Below are positions 3,266 to 31,735 of a DNA stretch of 31,735 bases, piece after piece; the stretch's first letter is position 1, and every line of letters starts with the position of its first letter. This stretch comes from a virus: positions 1-31,735 of IMG/VR virus record IMGVR_UViG_3300023294_000061; one strand, written 5' to 3'. The position numbers were made by a program, and so were the translations under genes. The notes below the pieces were generated by a model. That model was not told the origin of the DNA. It was given only the letters and a program-made list of their open reading frames with translations, and did not search any database.

Positions 3266-4990
3266 TTAACAAGGGTTAGCAGTTCCAGTTACTTGACCTC
3301 GATCAAAACTTACAAAAGATCCGTCTGTGGTTTTATACCATCTATTAAAGGTTAAAGGTACATATTTGTACTTTCCTCCTTTATAATTAAACCCGTAATA
3401 GACTGTTCCTGATGGACCTATGGAGTATGTTTCAGTTCCGCTAAAATTACAAATATAGTTTAAAAGTCTAGGGCTTATAGTAGAAGGGTTATTTAAATCA
3501 TAAGAAGAAGCAAATCCAGTTGAACTATAAGTTACGTCAGTTAATTCAGTTCCACACGTTTCATATGCAACTACTCTTCCTCCACTTACTATAGCGTTTT
3601 TACCACCTCTTTCATTTACACCTTCATATATAGGAAATCTACCAGATACTCTAATTTTACCTATTTCATAAGTAGTATTTCCACCATTTACTTTTTGTCT
3701 AGCACAGGCTTCTTCTTGAGTAGCATAAGCACCTCTAAATGTTGATAGTGTTATAGAAGGTCTTCTACACGCTCCTGTATTTTGTAGTCTACCATCTTTA
3801 TTAACTACATAGTAAGTTCCATCACCATATAATATATAGTTTTCAGTATTTGGGAATGTACCTCTAGTACTAGATAAAGCATCAGTTCTATTTAAATATA
3901 AGACATTGCCAAATTGATAGTAAGTTTGAGCTCTATAATTTTCATTAAAATTAGTACATGCTGCTTCCTCACTATCAAATATAGCTGAACCAAACTTAAT
4001 TGTTGGTTGAGGTACATATACAGGTGGTGGTCCACTAGGTCCTGGTGGTGGTGGGGGTGGGATTGGTGGAGGTGGTGGTGGTACTGTTAGTAATGTAAAA
4101 GTGGTTGTTGTTGTAGTACCATTTTTAGGTAATACTAATTGTCTTATAGTAAAACCTAATCCTTTATCAGCGGCAAATGTTGAACTATTTTCATTTCTAT
4201 TACTAGGACTATTAAACCCTCCTCCAGTTGTATATGTTTCTTTTTCTACACCATTAGTTACTCTTTGAACATAATTTCCATAAGCGCTTCTAGCTCCTCC
4301 TTTTATAGTAATATTTAAATCTTCTGAACGACCTGTTGCTGTCCAAGCACCAGGGTCAGGTGATGTACTATAATCATAAGTTACGGATTGTCCAGGACTG
4401 ATTCTATAAGTAGCGTTTCCTCTAGTGCTACGAAGTAAAACTTCCATAGTAGAAGAGTAGTTGTTTTTAAATACAACATTTACACTACCCGCCTCTAAAG
4501 GAGGGGGTAAAAGGTCATATGTAAAAGATAAAGGATCTGAGTTTGGAGATGGATCTGGTCCACTACAAGACATAAATGCTCTAAAATATATAGTTCCACT
4601 TACAAATGAAGAAGAAACAGGAATAGGTCCACTACCTGTGGCAGCATAAAATGATTCACTAACTGAAAAGTCAGGGGTGTTAGATACCGACGCTGTTATG
4701 TTAATAGGAAAATTAAAAGAAGATTGTGTTACGTAATTTATAGCAAATCTTCCCCTACGAGATCCTGTTGTTAAACTAGTTAATAAAGGTACAACACAAG
4801 TTTCAAATCCGGGTTCACATAAATCTGGTTCGTATGCCCTATTATAGTAATCGGTATCTTCTAAACTTGCTGAAAATGGTGATACAGTTAAATCTACATC
4901 AGATCCCGTCGCTACAGCACTACCTGAGTCAGGTCCTGTAGAAAAGAATTGTCTTACTGTATTATTTATTATGAAGCCTGTATTAGCCAT
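3266..4990 (-). CDS. Fibre-like virion protein with proline-rich hinge and three Cys-containing C-terminal repeats
   Basis: The 574 residues fall into three parts. Residues 1-300 are beta-rich, Ser/Gly/Thr-rich and Ig-like in composition, with a few cysteines. Residues about 303-330 are a proline run with two blocks of six prolines, a likely stiff or extended hinge. Residues about 335-574 hold three diverged repeats of roughly 75 residues. The first two open with S/TxEEAC, and all contain a Tyr-rich strand, a short Gly turn and a G-G-K/R or DGTYY-like loop. This composition fits a tail fibre or receptor-binding protein, with the C-terminal repeats as tip domains. The start codon overlaps the stop of the 1097-residue gene by 8 bases. 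I do not recognise a named family. The repeats resemble Cys-containing surface repeats common in Bacteroidetes proteins, which is a loose comparison. Confidence 0.72.
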   Translation of the reverse strand: MANTGFIINNTVRQFFSTGPDSGSAVATGSDVDLTVSPFSASLEDTDYYNRAYEPDLCEPGFETCVVPLLTSLTTGSRRGRFAINYVTQSSFNFPINITASVSNTPDFSVSESFYAATGSGPIPVSSSFVSGTIYFRAFMSCSGPDPSPNSDPLSFTYDLLPPPLEAGSVNVVFKNNYSSTMEVLLRSTRGNATYRISPGQSVTYDYSTSPDPGAWTATGRSEDLNITIKGGARSAYGNYVQRVTNGVEKETYTTGGGFNSPSNRNENSSTFAADKGLGFTIRQLVLPKNGTTTTTTFTLLTVPPPPPPIPPPPPPGPSGPPPVYVPQPTIKFGSAIFDSEEAACTNFNENYRAQTYYQFGNVLYLNRTDALSSTRGTFPNTENYILYGDGTYYVVNKDGRLQNTGACRRPSITLSTFRGAYATQEEACARQKVNGGNTTYEIGKIRVSGRFPIYEGVNERGGKNAIVSGGRVVAYETCGTELTDVTYSSTGFASSYDLNNPSTISPRLLNYICNFSGTETYSIGPSGTVYYGFNYKGGKYKYVPLTFNRWYKTTDGSFVSFDRGQVTGTANPC

Positions 4991-10038: not shown

Positions 10039-13000
10039 TTATGATATTAAGTTCTGTGATTTTAGTTCTTTGACGATATTACCCGCCCTTTCTTGTAGGG
10101 ATTTTGGTATATCTGATGGTAAAACAATACCTGTTGATGTTTGTCCAGGTTGTTTTGTAAAGTCTAACACGATGTTGGTTTCATCGGATGTTTTTCTCAA
10201 TATAACAAAATGACCAATTTGTCTAGCATCTTCAGGTGAGGAGACACTTCCATAATCGTCACATGCTCTTGCAGGTATATCTCTATTAAATTCAACTGTT
10301 AAACGTCTTGTATTAGTTACTTCGTCTCTAAATACAGTATTAACACGTTTTACTTGTCTTTCAAATTCTTTAGGGAACTCCCCACTTGCTGAGTCGTAGA
10401 ATCTAAATAAATCGCCTTGTTGAATTACAAATTCCTCATCTACAACAGGATATCCTTCTTGTACAGATGATGTTTGTATAAAGTTTCCATACCAATAAGA
10501 CATTGAAACGGATGCTGTAAGTATATTAAATGATCCTGTGTTGTTCCTTAAAAAGAAAGCATTTCCATTATCCGCATCTCCTCTATCTTCTATACTTGAA
10601 GTTAAAGCTAAGATTGGATCTGAAGGGTAATAATAAGTATATTCAGGTTCTGAATATTTAGCTGATTCTGCTCCTATGTTAATTGAAGCACTTACTATTT
10701 GGGGAGTTGGGAAAATAGTTTCAAAATACCCACCCATGGCAGATGGGGAATCGTCTAATAATGCTTCTGTTGAATTAGTATTTTTAGGTAAAGTAACAGA
10801 ATTAGTTACATGGTAAGTTGCTCTTAATAAAGCAAAATCTCCTAAATCAGTTGAAGATGATATTAAAGGTAAGGCTCCATCAAAGGGGTTCCATGTAATA
10901 CTATCTATTGAAGCTGAGGTGTTTTTAGGAATGTTTAATTCCATTTCAACTTGTCCTTCAATGTTAACTACTAAATCGTTATCCCACCAAATTGTAGATT
11001 GATTAACAGGAGTATTTCTAGTTAATGTAATAGCAGGATATCCACCTACAGATACATTGTTACTACCACTTTGAATATTAATTGTACCTAAAGTAAAGTT
11101 AGATATTTTAACAAATTCTCCACCTAAACTTCCAGGTAATTCCTTTAAGTCTGTTTTTGTAGTTGTAGTTAACGAACCAGATGTGAATTTGTATACTAAA
11201 ACATTACTACCTGTTGGGTTTTGTAAGCATGCTAAGTATCTAAACCCACCTGCTGATATAGGTTTTAAACCATCTAGGTATTTTTGATCTGAATATAGTT
11301 GGTTATTGTCTAATGAAATGTTTGCTTGTTTGTTTGAATTGAATATATTTTGTAATTCAAATAAGCTCTCATTTTTACGAGTTAATTCCGTAACGTTAGA
11401 TCTACCATCAATTAGATACTTTAAGTATACATTTGAACGATCAGGGAATAGTGAGCCTGTTTCTACTATTTCAGAGAAATAAGCAAACTTAAGTGAATTT
11501 AAATCAATGGCAGCAGTTTGACCATATGATTTATCTCCTACAGTATAATCGTTATATTTTGCTGATGTATTTTTACTACCTAAATATCTTGGATTTACGC
11601 TACGCAATAATGTATAGTTACTATCTTGAATAGGAGCATCTAAAAATGGAGTATCCTGTTCTGTAATTTGCCCAAATGATCTACTTGTAATAAATCCTAT
11701 GTTAACAGGAGTGACTATATTTGAAGAATAATCAATATCCATATATTGGGTTGATTTTCTAGCTTCTAACACGTTATTTAAAGTAGGTAAAAATGGAACA
11801 GCAGAATACGATAGTGAAGTACTATATTCGGTTTCTGTGTTAAAGAAACTTTTTTCAGTTACCATACTAGTAGTAGGTTGTGAATAAACTGTTAATTCAC
11901 TTCCACTATATTCTCCGGTAAATGCTTCTACATTATCTGTAAAGTTATAAACTACAAATGAAGCTGTGATTGTATCTCCAGATCCGGATGGTATCGCTAC
12001 GTTTCCTGTATAAGTTGTATCTAAAGGTACTCCCATTGGAGTTGAACCTTCTATACTAACCATATCAATTGATCCTGAATGGTCTATATAGGTAAAAGAT
12101 GGTTCGAATTTTTCTGTTTTGTTTCTTTCTAATAAGTGTGGTTTAATTACTAAACCAGATCTCAGTGATGCTTTAGCAGGAATAAAATCCTTTAACATCT
12201 TAAATAAAGAACTATCGTAATAAGATAATAACTTAATTACATCATATACGTTTTGTGATTTATAATACTTTCTAAAATAAAACTTCTTTAATTCATCTAG
12301 TTTAGGGTATGACCCCGAAGCCGCTAATTTAGGATCTCCTATATATTCATCTATATCAAAAAATCCTAATTGGTTAACTATATCAGTATCTATACTATTT
12401 TGAGGGGATACAGATATTTCAATATTATCCAAATCAGCAGTATATCCATTTTTTAGTTTTTGTTGAACACTAATATAAGGAGATAGGGTAGATCCTGATA
12501 CTATAGGGTTATTTTCTGTTCGTATTTTTGCTTCATTTAATGTAAAAGCTCCAGCATCAGGTCCCTGCATTAAATCTACATTGCTATAAGTTACAAAACT
12601 TTCAGTTGTAAAGTTTGTTATAATTCCATAATTTATAGTAGAAGAACCTGTACCTAAGAATGAGGCTGTTGGAGCAAATGAACCTGTAGATAAAGGATGA
12701 ACAGTATAAATTTTATTATCCCCATCAGAACCTGAAAATTCATTATAGTTTCCTAACGGTAATCTATATATTAAATTATAATATGAAGATGTTATATCAT
12801 TATCTACATAAGATGTAGGATTTAAAACGTGTTGGTCAAATGTAGATTGAGATAAATTTGTAATCCAATATCTAAATTCTTGGAAATACCCATCAAATAT
12901 AACACCATCAGGTGCTATGACGTTGCTACTACTAGCTCCCCCCAAATATCCATGAAGTTGAGTATTACCGGAGGTGAAGGTATAAGTGTTCCAAGCTTCA

Positions 13001-15372
13001 TTGTATGAAGCAGAGGTAGAAGCCGATATTACTAAGCTAGAAGATGATTGATAGTCAATGTAATTATTATTTCCATCGTATTGCCCTGATTTAGCTATTA
13101 ATTCATAAGTAGTATTTAGTGAACCACTACTATTTAAATTTTGGCCTGCTGGACTTCTGTCTAATTTTATATCCCAAAAACTACCTGTAAAGAAAGGTAA
13201 GAAAATAGGATCTGTAGAAGTATATCCTTGGGAACCTGAGAGTATGAATCTTAGTTCACCATAATTATTGAAGGATGTACCTGGTAAGTCCGCTATAGAT
13301 TCTGAAGGATATAATAGTTGCAATCCAAATTGTGAAGAAGAATCACTATTATTTACTTGGAATATAGATTGAGTAAAATGACTAGCAGAAGGTATATCTT
13401 TAGTTTTAAATCTAAACTCAATTGTATCCGGTACTTGATCCTCAGCTAAAATACCGTTCCACCAACCTTCTATATCGTTCCAATCTTTATCTACTTCCTC
13501 CCAAAAATCAGGAACAATAGGCATTAATGTTGGTAACCAAGGTACTTCTAATGAACTAGAACCCCTAGTATCTAATATTCGATTAGATTTTTCAAAGTAT
13601 TGGGTTACTCTTCTTTCATTTTTCTTATTACCCCCAAATTCATTTATTCTTAAAATATCATCAGCTATACCAAAACAATTTAAGAGTGCTCTTAAACCAC
13701 GATATGAACCTTTAGATTTAAGTAGGTAAGGTAAGTTATGGTAGATACGTTTGTATACTTCTTTATTTACATCATCGTAGGATATAACTTCATTTGAAGC
13801 TGATATGTAGTTTTCTACTCTTAAAGATCCTGTATCTGGTACAAGTGACCCTGATGGAGATAGTCCTAAGATAGAGGTGAATATATCTGTGTTTGTTCTG
13901 TTACTTGTATATAATTTGATACCTAAAGAACGAAGCGAATCCGCTACCATATCTTTAGATATACCATAATCAGGTCTGTTATCTGTTATTTGTAAATCAC
14001 CTATTGCTCTAGTGTAAGTCCATATGTAATCAAAGTGTTGTCCTAGCATCGCTACAAGCAATTCTAGGTTTTGATTTTGTGGATCATCTTTTACAAATGA
14101 AGGTAAAGTATTCCAAATATAATCTCTATTTTCTGTATCGTATAAGGAAGCAGATAATACTTGACCACCATAATAATCACTAGATTCATCAGCAGATCCT
14201 AACCAAAACAATGAACCTGTATCGTTTACAGATAAATTATCATAGGGAGGGAATTCGTTTGATTTGGGCCATGATTTTGATCCTGAATTAAAATACAAGT
14301 AATATTCGTAATTATCGAATTTTTCTATTAATGTATCTATGTTGTCTTGTATAGTTGCTTTAGAGGCAGATACAAAACTATCATCTGTTAATTCATCTAT
14401 ACCTTTAAGTGAATTTAAATCGCTTTGGTAATTTTGAATTAAAGTTAATTTATATCTAAAGTTTTCTAATCTCTCAACAGCAGAAGAAAAATGTACAAAG
14501 TTTGAAAAATCCTCGTGATCAATATTAATATTGACACTAGTTTCCTCTAAATAGGATTTTACTTGTTGGTATGAAGAGGTTTGTGTTGTATCAAGTATTT
14601 CGTTTACGTTAAAATACTTAGTTGTAAAGTTAGTTTGTGAGTTTAACTCTATATTTGTATTTGGACCTCTTAAATAATTTTTTTGCTCTGTTTCTTCAGA
14701 TGTAAATTGGATATCTACATTAAAGGATATTGGGTCAGATATTTCTTCTGCAACCCATAAGGTATCTTTTAAGTTATAACCTGCGGGTAATGGTTCATAT
14801 AATTTAATAAATAAACTAGGTTCTGCTTCATTAGATGTATCTAATAAAGAGTTTACTCCTATTACAGTATTGTTATTTCCAAAGTTTAAAAGGAAATCTG
14901 AATAAAAACTTTTTGCTTGTTTTGCTACTAGATAGTTAAAATAAGATGTACCTAAAGCGTTGTATGAAATATCATTAGTAGATATTCTTATTTCAGTTCT
15001 ATCTCCTGAGATTTCTTTAATGAAGAATCTTGTTGAGTTTGAGCTAAGAAATAAGTTTCTGTAGAAGAAATATCCAGTATTAAATTTACCTAAAGTATAC
15101 CCAGCACCCTTTGTATCACGTTCAGGGTCTAAAGATAAAGTATTAGTTAAAGAGCTATTATCTGTTGTAGTTAAAACAGAATAATTCTTAAAATCGTAAT
15201 TAGTGTTTAATAATTGGTTTGAATTTGAAAATATATGAAATTCAATCACATCTTGTTCCGCACCAAATTCTCTACTAAGGGAATACTCATTTAATAAGTT
15301 TATATCCTTTGTAGTGTAGTCTTGGGGGATTAAAGATTCCGGAGAATTATTTGAGACACTAATTTGCTCCAT
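10039..15372 (-). CDS. Giant baseplate protein: gpI-like region plus LamG-like domain
   Basis: The 1777 residues make this the largest gene. Residues about 425-580 contain LVAMLGQHFDYIWTYTRAIGD, a DSLRSLGIKLY stretch and then YHNLPYLLKSKGSYRGLRAL near 540-560. A run of LPYLLKSKG followed by a helical RGLRALLNCFG is the signature shape of phage tail protein I (P2 gpI). In P2-like baseplates gpI follows W (gp25) and J (gp6), the same order as here. Residues about 645-840 look like a LamG/concanavalin-type beta-sandwich: IEFRFKTKDI at the start and FQEFRYWITNLSQ at the end. The remaining 900 residues are Ser/Gly/Thr-rich, with many TGS motifs and probably more beta domains. It is likely the outer baseplate wedge or fibre-attachment protein, comparable in place to T4 gp7. 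Start ATG follows the 115-residue gene's stop by one base (TAATATG). Confidence 0.78.
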   Translation of the reverse strand: MEQISVSNNSPESLIPQDYTTKDINLLNEYSLSREFGAEQDVIEFHIFSNSNQLLNTNYDFKNYSVLTTTDNSSLTNTLSLDPERDTKGAGYTLGKFNTGYFFYRNLFLSSNSTRFFIKEISGDRTEIRISTNDISYNALGTSYFNYLVAKQAKSFYSDFLLNFGNNNTVIGVNSLLDTSNEAEPSLFIKLYEPLPAGYNLKDTLWVAEEISDPISFNVDIQFTSEETEQKNYLRGPNTNIELNSQTNFTTKYFNVNEILDTTQTSSYQQVKSYLEETSVNINIDHEDFSNFVHFSSAVERLENFRYKLTLIQNYQSDLNSLKGIDELTDDSFVSASKATIQDNIDTLIEKFDNYEYYLYFNSGSKSWPKSNEFPPYDNLSVNDTGSLFWLGSADESSDYYGGQVLSASLYDTENRDYIWNTLPSFVKDDPQNQNLELLVAMLGQHFDYIWTYTRAIGDLQITDNRPDYGISKDMVADSLRSLGIKLYTSNRTNTDIFTSILGLSPSGSLVPDTGSLRVENYISASNEVISYDDVNKEVYKRIYHNLPYLLKSKGSYRGLRALLNCFGIADDILRINEFGGNKKNERRVTQYFEKSNRILDTRGSSSLEVPWLPTLMPIVPDFWEEVDKDWNDIEGWWNGILAEDQVPDTIEFRFKTKDIPSASHFTQSIFQVNNSDSSSQFGLQLLYPSESIADLPGTSFNNYGELRFILSGSQGYTSTDPIFLPFFTGSFWDIKLDRSPAGQNLNSSGSLNTTYELIAKSGQYDGNNNYIDYQSSSSLVISASTSASYNEAWNTYTFTSGNTQLHGYLGGASSSNVIAPDGVIFDGYFQEFRYWITNLSQSTFDQHVLNPTSYVDNDITSSYYNLIYRLPLGNYNEFSGSDGDNKIYTVHPLSTGSFAPTASFLGTGSSTINYGIITNFTTESFVTYSNVDLMQGPDAGAFTLNEAKIRTENNPIVSGSTLSPYISVQQKLKNGYTADLDNIEISVSPQNSIDTDIVNQLGFFDIDEYIGDPKLAASGSYPKLDELKKFYFRKYYKSQNVYDVIKLLSYYDSSLFKMLKDFIPAKASLRSGLVIKPHLLERNKTEKFEPSFTYIDHSGSIDMVSIEGSTPMGVPLDTTYTGNVAIPSGSGDTITASFVVYNFTDNVEAFTGEYSGSELTVYSQPTTSMVTEKSFFNTETEYSTSLSYSAVPFLPTLNNVLEARKSTQYMDIDYSSNIVTPVNIGFITSRSFGQITEQDTPFLDAPIQDSNYTLLRSVNPRYLGSKNTSAKYNDYTVGDKSYGQTAAIDLNSLKFAYFSEIVETGSLFPDRSNVYLKYLIDGRSNVTELTRKNESLFELQNIFNSNKQANISLDNNQLYSDQKYLDGLKPISAGGFRYLACLQNPTGSNVLVYKFTSGSLTTTTKTDLKELPGSLGGEFVKISNFTLGTINIQSGSNNVSVGGYPAITLTRNTPVNQSTIWWDNDLVVNIEGQVEMELNIPKNTSASIDSITWNPFDGALPLISSSTDLGDFALLRATYHVTNSVTLPKNTNSTEALLDDSPSAMGGYFETIFPTPQIVSASINIGAESAKYSEPEYTYYYPSDPILALTSSIEDRGDADNGNAFFLRNNTGSFNILTASVSMSYWYGNFIQTSSVQEGYPVVDEEFVIQQGDLFRFYDSASGEFPKEFERQVKRVNTVFRDEVTNTRRLTVEFNRDIPARACDDYGSVSSPEDARQIGHFVILRKTSDETNIVLDFTKQPGQTSTGIVLPSDIPKSLQERAGNIVKELKSQNLIS

Positions 15373-28481: not shown

Positions 28482-28505
28482 AACCTTTATTTTTAATTGA
28501 ACCCC

Positions 28506-28537
28506 TAAATATACGAAGGCTACCTGTGGCAGCCAAA
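28506..28537 (-). promoter_or_regulatory. Host-type early promoter before the lipoprotein gene
   Basis: Sense strand: TTTGG (28533-28537), 19 bases, TATATTTA (28506-28513), 24 bases before the ATG. The 33 bases from the -7 box to just beyond the -33 box match those at 28877-28909 at all but one position. The leader ends AATAAAGGTTATG, shared with three other early genes. The layout is that of Bacteroidetes primary-sigma promoters (TTTG ... TAnnTTTG). Confidence 0.7.
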
Positions 28538-28541
28538 TATT

Positions 28542-28859: not shown

Positions 28860-28876
28860 AACCTTTATTTAATACG

Positions 28877-28908
28877 TAAATATACGAAGGCTACCTGTGG
28901 CAACCAAA
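28877..28908 (-). promoter_or_regulatory. Host-type early promoter before the 105-residue gene
   Basis: Sense strand: TTTGG (28904-28908), 19 bases, TATATTTA (28877-28884), then CG and the AATAAAGGTTATG leader, 17 bases to the ATG. It is a near-identical copy of the element at 28506-28537, so the promoter was duplicated or is kept by selection. Confidence 0.72.
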
Positions 28909-28935
28909 TTATTCTATATATACTCTTGCCGATGC

Positions 28936-29262: not shown

Positions 29263-29288
29263 ATATTCGTATCATAATATATTCGTAT
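29263..29288. repeat. AT-rich direct repeat ATATTCGTAT, two copies
   Basis: Plus strand copies at 29263-29272 and 29279-29288, 16 bases apart, within an AT-rich stretch of about 70 bases between the zinc-ribbon gene and the GC-rich island. They may be binding sites or a melting region next to the repeats in 29292-29424. Confidence 0.5.
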
Positions 29289-29291
29289 ATA

Positions 29292-29424
29292 CGCATCGAT
29301 GCGGGAATCCGTTAAGTATCTCTTAATCCGTCAACACTTTTGCCTGCGATACCGCACCATCGATGGACCGCGGCGATCGTGGGAGCGATCCGCTATTAGG
29401 CCGCGATAGGCCCGCTAACGGGCC
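29292..29424. repeat. GC-rich island with palindromes and short repeats, possible origin or operator cluster
   Basis: This 130-base stretch is unusually GC-rich for the window. It contains the perfect palindromes CGCATCGATGCG (29292-29303) and CCATCGATGG (29357-29366), which share the core CATCGATG 64 bases apart. It also holds four same-strand GCGATA/GCGATC words at 29346, 29373, 29385 and 29403, and a perfect hairpin GGCCCG-CTAA-CGGGCC at 29409-29424, one base after the stop of the acidic gene. Neighbouring AT-rich DNA lies at 29218-29290. The arrangement resembles an iteron/DNA-unwinding layout of a replication origin or a dense operator region. No coding frame of convincing length is seen in it. 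Function is inferred. Confidence 0.5.
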
Positions 29425-29425
29425 G

Positions 29426-29671
29426 CTAGTAATCTTCTTCTTCTAAATCTCCGTCCTCTTCGTTCTCTTCGTCTCCTACATAAGCTCCGGCGTGGATGTC
29501 ATCAATTAGCGCTTCCATGCGATAAAGCAATTCATCCATGGGAAACACACCGGCACTGTCAATTTCGGCGGATAATGATTGGTTTTGCTCATAGTCGCGT
29601 GCATCGGTTAATCTATCATATAATACTGATATTTCGTCGTATATGGATGTTAATTCGGTTATCGTGCTCAT
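29426..29671 (-). CDS. Small acidic protein, 81 residues
   Basis: No known family. The protein is helical (ITELTSIYDEISVLYDRL, DELLYRMEALIDDIHAG) and ends in a very acidic tail of about 17 residues (YVGDEENEEDGDLEEEDY). Acidic small phage proteins sometimes mimic DNA or bind host nucleic-acid proteins, which is possible here but not shown. It is followed after one base by a strong hairpin in the GC-rich island. Its upstream gap holds an AATATTTA box and the G-run hairpin at 29719-29735. Confidence 0.62.
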   Translation of the reverse strand: MSTITELTSIYDEISVLYDRLTDARDYEQNQSLSAEIDSAGVFPMDELLYRMEALIDDIHAGAYVGDEENEEDGDLEEEDY

Positions 29672-30002: not shown

Positions 30003-30299
30003 CTATACCTTAGTTAGTTTGTATTTTACTCCTTCAATTTCTACAATCTTATTTTCACAAGATTTGTTTCTGTTATTGAATTCTTCTTTGGTTATCTGTA
30101 TATCCTTAATGTAGTAATATTTATTTCCATTTTCATACTCCGTAGCAGGCCCATCTTCTCTATGAAGTTTACCATTGAGGTAGTACGCCTTATATCCGTC
30201 TGCATATTCTACAGCAGGTCCATCTTCTCTGTGGCGTTGACCTTCCAAGTTATACCAGTCTGTTCTGTCATTATGTACTTTTACTTTGTATTCTTTCAT
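30003..30299 (-). CDS. HREDGPA-repeat (MORN-like) protein, short paralogue
   Basis: A 98-residue protein with two copies of a 23-residue repeat whose core is HREDGPA followed by E-Y/W-x-x-G-x-K-x-Y-Y. Similar repeats are known from many phages and giant viruses and are often annotated as MORN-variant repeats. They form a beta-meander; a precise function is not established. The C-terminus (EFNNRNKSCENKIVEIEGVK) matches the longer paralogue at 30833-31198 closely, as does the MK-x-YKV start. The two genes are clearly copies of one ancestor, with a different gene (160 residues) inserted between them. The leader ends AAAAGATTATG, close to the shared early leader. Confidence 0.8.
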   Translation of the reverse strand: MKEYKVKVHNDRTDWYNLEGQRHREDGPAVEYADGYKAYYLNGKLHREDGPATEYENGNKYYYIKDIQITKEEFNNRNKSCENKIVEIEGVKYKLTKV

Positions 30300-30312: not shown

Positions 30313-30795
30313 TTAATCCCACCATGACTGTATATTATGTTCTATATATTTCCAAAGAATGCGATGGGCTTTCTTTTGTTTTGTATTTGATTCGTGAAAA
30401 AGGAATTGATTTAATTCTCTGATTTCATCTGCATTGTTCCAATATTCGTATTTATGCTTTAAATATCCTGAATCATCTCCTTTACCGGTATCTTCAAATT
30501 CAAAATCATATACATCTTCACCGTAAATTTTTTCTATTTTAGATTGATATTCACACCCATAAAAATCATCGTAGACCTTATCTAATAGTCTAATTGTGGT
30601 TCTTATGCGTTGGGCTTTTAAAAGAGAATCTAAACCATATGCGGTTTCGCCTTCTAAGGTAGTTGCTAACCTTCCAAGTTGATGTTTGAATAAATCTATT
30701 GCGGACATATAATCCCTGTCATATCCTTTCCAAATAATTGGGAGGAATGATAGGGTTCTTTTTATTTGTGTATATTTTCTTTTAAACCAGTACAT
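30313..30795 (-). CDS. Conserved phage protein of unknown function, 160 residues
   Basis: This Trp/Tyr-rich protein begins with a basic segment (FKRKYTQIKRTLSFLPIIWK). Next is a YDRDYMSAIDLFKHQLGRLA stretch and an AQRIRTTIRLLDKVYDDFYG helix. It ends in a charged helix (NTKQKKAHRILWKYIEHNI). Small proteins with this WKxxxWDxxY...LL..L....R...I..M..VI.LL layout recur in many tailed phages in my recollection, and no function is established. It sits between the two HREDGPA paralogues. TATAAATA on the sense strand lies directly before its ATG (30796-30803), too close for a normal promoter. Confidence 0.65.
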   Translation of the reverse strand: MYWFKRKYTQIKRTLSFLPIIWKGYDRDYMSAIDLFKHQLGRLATTLEGETAYGLDSLLKAQRIRTTIRLLDKVYDDFYGCEYQSKIEKIYGEDVYDFEFEDTGKGDDSGYLKHKYEYWNNADEIRELNQFLFHESNTKQKKAHRILWKYIEHNIQSWWD

Positions 30796-30832
30796 TATTT
30801 ATATAAATTTAATGTTTTTGAATTTCATAACT

Positions 30833-31198
30833 CTATACTTTAGATAGTTTATACTTTACTCCTTCAATTTCTACTACCTTACCTTCGCAAGTTTTAGTTC
30901 TACTATTAAATTCTTTTTCAGTTAAATGTTTATCATTAATGTAATAAGATTTATCTCCATTTGCCCACTCTACAGCAGGTCCGTCCTCTCTATGAAGTTT
31001 ATCATTAATGTAATAAGATTTATCTCCATTTGAACACTCTACAGCAGGTCCATCTTCTCTATGACGCTTATCATTAATGAGGTAATATTTATCTCCATTC
31101 GCCCACTCTATAGCAGGACCATCTTCTCTATGAAGCAGGTTAGACTCGTTGTACCATCTAGTGCTGTATTCCGTTACTTCTACTTTGTATTTTTTCAT
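30833..31198 (-). CDS. HREDGPA-repeat (MORN-like) protein, long paralogue
   Basis: A 121-residue protein with three 23-residue repeats of HREDGPA-type core, one more than the copy at 30003-30299. The repeats are also near-identical as DNA, with a 69-base unit. It has the same MKKYKV start and the same KVVEIEGVKYKLSKV end as its paralogue. The nucleotide-level repeat means the gene can gain or lose units by recombination. Its leader ends AATAAAGGTTATG, and a TAGATTTA box lies 23 bases upstream of the ATG. Upstream is the structured element at 31247-31355. Possible roles include binding a host or virion protein; nothing more can be read from the sequence. Confidence 0.82.
   Translation of the reverse strand: MKKYKVEVTEYSTRWYNESNLLHREDGPAIEWANGDKYYLINDKRHREDGPAVECSNGDKSYYINDKLHREDGPAVEWANGDKSYYINDKHLTEKEFNSRTKTCEGKVVEIEGVKYKLSKV
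30931..31137 (-). repeat. 69-base tandem repeat coding the HREDGPA units
   Basis: Three copies begin at 30931, 31000 and 31069 (plus-strand TATCATTAAT landmark), exactly 69 bases (23 codons) apart and mostly identical. They encode the three HREDGPA units of the long paralogue. Recent expansion by slippage or recombination is likely, since third-codon positions are also conserved. Confidence 0.85.
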
Positions 31199-31221
31199 AA
31201 CCTTTATTTATTTTAAATTTT

Positions 31222-31229
31222 TAAATCTA
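31222..31229 (-). promoter_or_regulatory. Weak -7-like box before the long HREDGPA gene
   Basis: TAGATTTA on the sense strand fits TAnnTTT, 23 bases before the ATG at 31198. The -33 position 19 bases upstream falls in the GGGGC arm of the structured element and has no TTTGG, so this may be weak or need the element. Confidence 0.25.
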
Positions 31230-31246
31230 CACTCAATTAATATTAT

Positions 31247-31355
31247 TGGCCCCATCGCTCCCTCGTCAGGGAATGCTTGAGCGGATTAGGTGATCAAACC
31301 CATATCACTAGGGGTGGACGCATTAACTCCACCCTATTAACTCCACCCGGGGCCA
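31247..31355 (-). ncRNA. Putative structured RNA element with four-way junction
   Basis: A 109-base GC-rich stretch folds, on inspection of the sense strand, into a closing 7-bp helix TGGCCCC (31349-31355) with GGGGCCA (31247-31253). Inside are three hairpins. P2 is GGGTGGA/TCCACCC (31328-31334 with 31312-31318), extendable to about nine pairs with one bulge. P3 has TGAT/ATCA at its core (31290-31308). P4 has CGCT/AGCG with an inner CCCT-GACG-AGGG hairpin (31256-31283). A second GGGTGGA copy at 31342-31348 can replace the first P2 arm, giving an alternative fold. It lies between the 59-residue gene and the long HREDGPA gene, with no T-tract, so it is not a simple terminator. It is not a tRNA: there is no TTCRA T-loop. 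Function unknown. Confidence 0.4.
31322..31348. repeat. 13-base direct repeat ATTAACTCCACCC, two copies
   Basis: Plus-strand copies at 31322-31334 and 31336-31348, 14 bases apart. Each supplies a pairing arm for the GGGTGGA segment at 31312-31318, so two mutually exclusive hairpins are possible. Confidence 0.8.
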
Positions 31356-31373
31356 TGCTTTTAATATTGTTAT

Positions 31374-31433
31374 CTAATCTCTTAGGCCTGTAACCATCGC
31401 AGCGATGAGTACTATTATTAGTATGTATTCCAC
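31374..31433 (-). CDS. Possible tiny membrane peptide, 19 residues
   Basis: A GTG start overlaps the stop of the 59-residue gene by one base (TAGTG), and the frame ends in TAG after 19 residues. The product is M-EYILIIVLIAAMVTGLRD, almost entirely hydrophobic with a charged end, like a one-helix membrane peptide. The evidence is only the overlap and the composition; it may be chance. Confidence 0.3.
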   Translation of the reverse strand: MEYILIIVLIAAMVTGLRD

Positions 31434-31612
31434 TATGCAGTCATTTTCAGAAATATATTTAGGAACTTACCACGAGTTAAACCACTCGCATCAACAGCTT
31501 TATTTAACTCACTTTGAAAGCGTATATTAAATTCTGCCATCGTAATACTTTTAGATATAACTTCTTGATTTAACTGTTTTTGTAACAACTTTAATATTTC
31601 AGCCTCTTTCAT
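31433..31612 (-). CDS. Short helical protein, 59 residues
   Basis: The frame starts ATG at 31610-31612 and ends TAG. The product begins MKEAEILKLLQKQLNQEVIS and continues SKSITMAEFNIRFQSELNKA to LTRGKFLNIFLKMTA. It is fully helical and basic toward the end. The pattern of a short helix, a turn (VDASGLTRGKF) and another helix could be a small DNA-binding or host-binding fold, but no family is recognised. It is preceded by the AATAAAGGTTATG leader and, 23 bases upstream, a host-type promoter, which supports expression. Confidence 0.68.
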   Translation of the reverse strand: MKEAEILKLLQKQLNQEVISKSITMAEFNIRFQSELNKAVDASGLTRGKFLNIFLKMTA

Positions 31613-31635
31613 AACCTTTATTTTAATTTATACCG

Positions 31636-31667
31636 TAAATATACGCTGAATATCTCAGGTAGCCTAA
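31636..31667 (-). promoter_or_regulatory. Host-type early promoter before the 59-residue gene
   Basis: Sense strand: TTAGG (31663-31667), 19 bases, TATATTTA (31636-31643), then CGG, 23 bases before the ATG at 31612. The spacer differs from those at 28.5 and 28.9 kb while both boxes and the spacing are kept, so the boxes are likely what matters. The -33 box overlaps the stop codon of the partial gene at the right edge. Confidence 0.6.
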
Positions 31668-31735
31668 TTATTCAGTTCCTGCTTGTGAAGCATTGTTCAT
31701 ATTGTTTAAGTATTCAGTTGATCTACGATGTTTTT
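31668..31735 (-). CDS. C-terminal end of an unknown gene (cut by window edge)
   Basis: Only the last 21 codons and the TAA stop (31668-31670) are inside the window. The visible end reads KHRRSTEYLNNMNNASQAGT plus a final Glu. It is too short to assign. The open frame, the correct strand and the promoter that starts right at its stop codon suggest that it is the end of the preceding early gene. Confidence 0.45.
   Translation of the reverse strand, partial: KHRRSTEYLNNMNNASQAGTE

Follow-up and report, generated by a model that had tools for sequence, protein, structure and literature searches.

On balance, some Immutovirus-like phages of marine Bacteroidetes probably carry a small structured noncoding RNA, encoded in the viral DNA analysed here (the window; 31,735 bases, a complete IMG/VR record) by the minus strand of positions 31239–31368. 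A homologous element was identified in a second phage, with two helices (P2 and P4) preserved by paired mutations and with invariant loops and joining sequences. In both phages the element lies between genes, on the coding strand and at the same accessory locus, and it is missing from that locus in others. It matches no Rfam model and, with a homolog in another Immutovirus-like phage differing by six two-sided changes, the original prediction of an undescribed phage RNA is supported.

The baseplate wedge protein and primase of the window find their closest match in Flavobacterium phage immuto (46% and 45% identity, respectively), and on these sequence similarities the window is assigned to an Immutovirus-like myophage, of which it is a fragment. 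The group has many relatives in IMG/VR. The main genes of the window are all on the minus strand. The element occupies part of a 234-nt intergenic gap on this strand (31199–31432), between a 59-aa ORF, for which no relatives were found, and a repeat-protein gene, for which no promoter motif of its own was seen (Table 1). A CAGCGTATATTT form of the promoter motif precedes the upstream small ORF both in the window and in L175, a contig of the second phage. The predicted placement between genes without a terminator was confirmed, as no terminator-like site (a GC-rich stem followed by a T run) was found in 30750–31735.

As originally described, positions 31247–31355 form a GC-rich element of 109 bases (54% GC versus 33% for the genome; only one other 100-nt stretch of the window is richer in GC) in which the 7-bp closing helix TGGCCCC/GGGGCCA and internal hairpins are present. 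The plus-strand reading was abandoned in favour of the minus strand, since both flanking genes and the phage promoter motif lie on it. The minus strand also folds better, with −48.2 kcal/mol (z −3.57, 1/200 shuffles) compared to −38.9 kcal/mol (z −2.08, 4/200 shuffles) for the plus strand. Comparison with the related phage led us to widen the element from 31247–31355 to 31239–31368.

Table 1. Coordinates of the structured element, its parts and its neighbours in the window.
Feature	Position	Strand	Remarks
Whole structured RNA element	31239..31368	minus	conserved limits AATATT...AATATT; ~110–130 bases
P0 outer closing helix, 5' strand AATATT	31363..31368	minus	invariant in both sequences
P0 outer closing helix, 3' strand AATATT	31239..31244	minus	complementary to 31363..31368
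P1 (7-bp closing helix), 5' strand TGGCCCC	31349..31355	minus	window fold; L175 has CTATGCT
P1, 3' strand GGGGCCA	31247..31253	minus	window fold; not kept in L175
Copy 1 of 14-nt duplication, GGGTGGAGTTAATA	31335..31348	minus	absent in L175
P2, 5' strand GGGTGGA (copy 2)	31328..31334	minus	compensatory changes vs L175
P2 loop GTTAATGCG	31319..31327	minus	with next base, invariant TTAATGCGT
P2, 3' strand TCCACCC	31312..31318	minus	all pairs kept vs L175
P3 hairpin TGGGT TTGATC ACCTA	31287..31302	minus	L175: GGGGT TCATT ACCCC
Conserved block CAAGCATTCCCTGACGAGGGAG with hairpin P4 (TCCCT GACG AGGGA)	31258..31279	minus	20/22 bases identical in L175
59-aa ORF	31433..31612	minus	immediately upstream of RNA element
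Phage promoter-like motif CAGCGTATATTTACGG	31633..31648	minus	upstream of 59-aa ORF; putative role
Repeat protein gene (HREDGPA repeats)	30833..31198	minus	downstream of RNA

Several observations were made on the surrounding genes. A promoter-like motif, TTCGTATATTTACG(TATAATAA), precedes many small genes, often right after a GC-rich hairpin without a T run; it is found at 28493–28538, 28864–28909 and 31633–31648 of the window and at many places in L150–L190. Repeat-protein genes occur in tandem (window 30003–30299 and 30833–31198; L003 and L004), with HREDGPA repeats that are DUF6745-like at a sub-threshold score. The array, strongly enlarged in G001 and G002, surrounds a 160-aa gene; this gene is 96–98% identical between otherwise divergent phages, which points to recent exchange. 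A possible 19-residue hydrophobic peptide, VEYILIIVLIAAMVTGLRD, lies at 31374–31466 of the window (minus), with a GTG start overlapping the stop of the 59-aa ORF; it might be a small membrane peptide or a product of chance.

Contigs with the same accessory region were gathered through a conserved GC-rich element (29335–29425) located 2 kb from the RNA. A covariance model (R1) derived solely from the window element matched L175 at 10654–10759 on the minus strand with 16.9 bits (E 0.2 over 48 sources, 0.0048 in L175 alone). By itself this score is marginal, since the two-sequence model (R2) reached 28 bits by chance among 400 genomes, inside an ABC-ATPase gene; R2 gives 119.4 bits for the window element, from which it was itself built. 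Direct local alignment of the window with L175 gave a score of 40; when the L175 stretch was dinucleotide-shuffled 3000 times, no score exceeded 36. Once one 14-nt copy is omitted, the alignment is nearly gap-free from the 5' end through P2, and three conserved blocks, AATATTAAA(A)GCA, TTAATGCGT and CAAGCATTCCC-GACG-GGGAG, keep their order. With its full limits the homolog spans 10643–10766 of L175 (minus), and the same sequence is found at 14282–14405 (plus) of the 44-kb contig G072; L175 and G072 are two contigs of one related phage.

The homolog belongs to the same phage group and sits at the same accessory locus, about 0.8 kb upstream of a gene cassette and of a second GC-rich element (element 2), both of which come after the RNA element in the window as well. 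Downstream of the homolog there is a gene homologous to 29794, another occupying the position of 29426, and element 2. The ORFs upstream of the RNA differ (59 aa in the window, 43 aa in L175, no match), the genes downstream of it do not match between window and L175, and in L175 the gene next after it has its own promoter motif. A further contig, L190, has the same upstream ORF at 95% identity; the next promoter comes immediately after it, and no such element lies between.

Element 2 is intergenic and on the minus strand (window 29272–29441, core 29335–29425). It contains iteron-like TAGCGG repeats, GCTCCCAC and CCGCGGTCCATCGATGG, then GTATATAC, and has also been listed with GCTCCCACG and the palindrome CCATCGATGG before GTATATAC. 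It is conserved in 16 distinct phage sequences with 0 covarying pairs. Judging by these sequences it is probably a DNA element, either a regulatory or protein-binding array or a replication origin, and separate from the RNA. A long, conserved-looking noncoding stretch, TTGGGGCTGGTAAAC...AACACGCTGGTATTCATGGTATAACAACGC..., was also seen upstream of accessory genes (L153 about 4240–4740, L203 about 1040–1700, L184 about 1–600, also L175); it had no match in Rfam.

Model searches of 60 phage records, 1.16 Mb of loci and 400 bacterial genomes of the Kordia family returned no third member, and the known family consists of only two distinct sequences. Among the R2 matches in the Kordia-family genomes, L225 was rejected as lying within an ABC-ATPase reading frame and L226 is weak. 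The element is absent from Flavobacterium phage immuto, the cultured relative of the lineage, and from G001 and G002, the relatives of the 160-aa and repeat genes. Searching phages and plasmids with the element by blastn gave nothing or AT-rich chance matches only. The patterns GTGGAGTTAATGCNTCCAC and CCCTGACGAGGGAGCGA had five chance matches in IMG/VR, none of them extendable, while for TTAATGCGTN{28,58}AAGCATTN{3,6}GACG the matches in IMG/VR were real only in L175 and G072, and all 15 in bacterial genomes were chance-like.

Between the window and L175, all seven P2 pairs are kept although five of them differ on both sides (G-C/A-U in four, U-A/C-G in one), and one further pair changes from A-U to G-U, a combination able to pair only when the minus strand is read. 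This altered stem is topped by the invariant TTAATGCGT loop. P4 keeps its five pairs with one two-sided change (U-A/A-U), which accounts for the only differences in a 22-base block; the consensus over both phages is CAAGCATTCCC[T/A]GACG[A/T]GGGAG. Six pairs (five in P2, one in P4) thus show the two-sided compensation by which structured noncoding RNAs are recognised, in a small sample of two sequences. A lack of covariation in homologous regions had been fixed beforehand as a ground for giving up the original prediction, which passes this test with its six changes in two helices. Paired cells amount to 96% for the structure versus 43–58% for slid controls, and shuffled controls match the observed covariation in 6–9 of 500 trials (about 1–2%). 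P3 was seen by eye in both sequences (TGGGT/ACCTA and GGGGT/ACCCC); P3, like the outer part of P4, fits only in part.

The whole L175 fold is only slightly better than its shuffles (z −1.3) and is likewise a closed junction, with the outer AAUAUU/AAUAUU and not GGCCCC/GGGGCC as the closing helix. The 7-bp helix is not a conserved part of the structure: only about three of its seven pairs are possible in L175. The bases of P0 are invariant in the window and L175 and so carry no covariation support. In the P2 loop, AATGC (31320–31324) is complementary to GCATT (31272–31276), both being invariant. A pseudoknot between this AAUGC and the GCAUU before P4 is possible from the complementarity; because these bases never vary, the comparison is silent for or against it.

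The arm ATTAACTCCACCC occurs twice in the window element, as a 14-nt tandem duplication, and had been proposed to permit switching between two competing hairpins. In the predicted fold GGGTGGA of copy 1 pairs with TCCGCTC (31279–31285) at a mean probability of 0.98, and the shared-arm pairing is made by copy 2 (mean probability 0.81) and not by copy 1 (0.0). Two hairpins can be drawn on paper, but one fold dominates and the alternative is 4.7 kcal/mol worse. Since the duplication lacks a counterpart in L175 and one fold is dominant, a conserved switch is unsupported; mutually exclusive folds kept among relatives, as in riboswitches and other two-state RNAs, were not found. Copy 1, being absent in L175, was probably derived in the window lineage, and the duplication is best seen as recent, lineage-specific slippage and not as a regulatory device.

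The most likely identity of the element is a small structured phage RNA, produced along with the small-ORF transcript and untied to one downstream gene. Transcription would start from the phage-type promoter upstream of the preceding small ORF. The RNA would fold as a closed junction of outer helix, P2, P3 and P4, with the AAUGC of the P2 loop pairing to the GCAUU before P4, and might then stand alone, either set free from the small-ORF transcript or persisting stably as its 3' portion. We have moderate confidence that its invariant loops would act on a protein or another RNA. That it switches a single downstream gene is less likely because the genes there differ; these differing neighbours, together with L190 lacking the element, fit an accessory RNA gene better than a one-gene leader. 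Accessory-gene-like behaviour is seen in its presence in some phages of the lineage and its absence at the same locus in others, and such a compact RNA, whose loops are invariant and whose stems covary, could act on the host. More tentatively, it may represent a new family of phage RNA that contains a pseudoknot and acts in trans, an accessory gene in some Immutovirus-like marine Bacteroidetes phages with a possible role, for example, in binding a host or phage protein during infection. To our knowledge, noncoding RNAs of Bacteroidetes phages have hardly been described.

A different explanation is a cis-acting intergenic mRNA element of the small-ORF transcript that serves processing, stability or translation of the neighbours, such as an RNase III- or RNase P-type processing site or a 3'-UTR stabiliser. 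The adjoining genes are indeed co-oriented, and intergenic GC-rich hairpins are common in this region of these phages. With no separate promoter motif for the downstream gene of the window, a single mRNA would contain the element. However, the neighbours on both sides differ between the phages, the next gene in L175 has its own promoter motif, and the invariant loop and joining sequences exceed the needs of a plain processing hairpin. We regard this explanation as rather unlikely.

Compensatory changes are equally expected from a hairpin-forming DNA site, for protein binding, recombination or replication. Folded single-stranded DNA also fits the compensations (DNA fold −20.2, z −2.7), and the nearby conserved element at 29335–29425 looks like such a site. 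Against this, the G-U change allows pairing only on the minus strand, which is also the better-folding one, and the element lies inside a likely transcription unit and is present in few relatives only, all of which render a DNA site improbable. A chance or relic hairpin cluster without function, accidentally resembling L175, is the most improbable of all: the two members and the shuffled covariation control, reached in about 1–2% of trials, would allow it, but the conserved blocks share order and locus, the alignment score is above 3000/3000 shuffles, and six two-sided compensations accompany invariant loops.

As anticipated, no tRNA or known RNA family was recognised. Rfam 15 (4227 models) gave no match to the window at the gathering score and none to 31180–31440 at E up to 5, the homolog had chance-level Rfam matches only, and neither ARAGORN nor the Rfam tRNA model RF00005 called a tRNA. 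A hammerhead ribozyme, prompted by CUGACGA, was dismissed as the GAAA core is missing. A coding reading was also rejected: just one small ORF with an ATG start crosses the element; it is 20 codons long, and the 14-nt duplication shifts it.

Among known systems, the 7-bp closing helix, three arms and CCA end of the window element are tRNA-like, but at 109 nt and without a T-loop consensus it is unlike a tRNA. The packaging RNA (pRNA) of phi29 is a phage-encoded junction RNA of similar size; the element differs from it in having no Rfam match (pRNA included) and no tie to packaging genes. RNA C and RNA D of T4 are small stable myophage RNAs of unknown role which, compared through Rfam only, are unlike the window element in lying within a tRNA cluster. 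The structured RNAs manA (RF01745) and wcaG from marine phage genomes were recognised by covariation and sit in potential 5' UTRs of metabolic genes in cyanobacterial phages (PMC2864571). Unlike these, the window element has no conserved downstream genes and no Rfam model match; like them, it is a structured RNA candidate of a marine phage with covariation.
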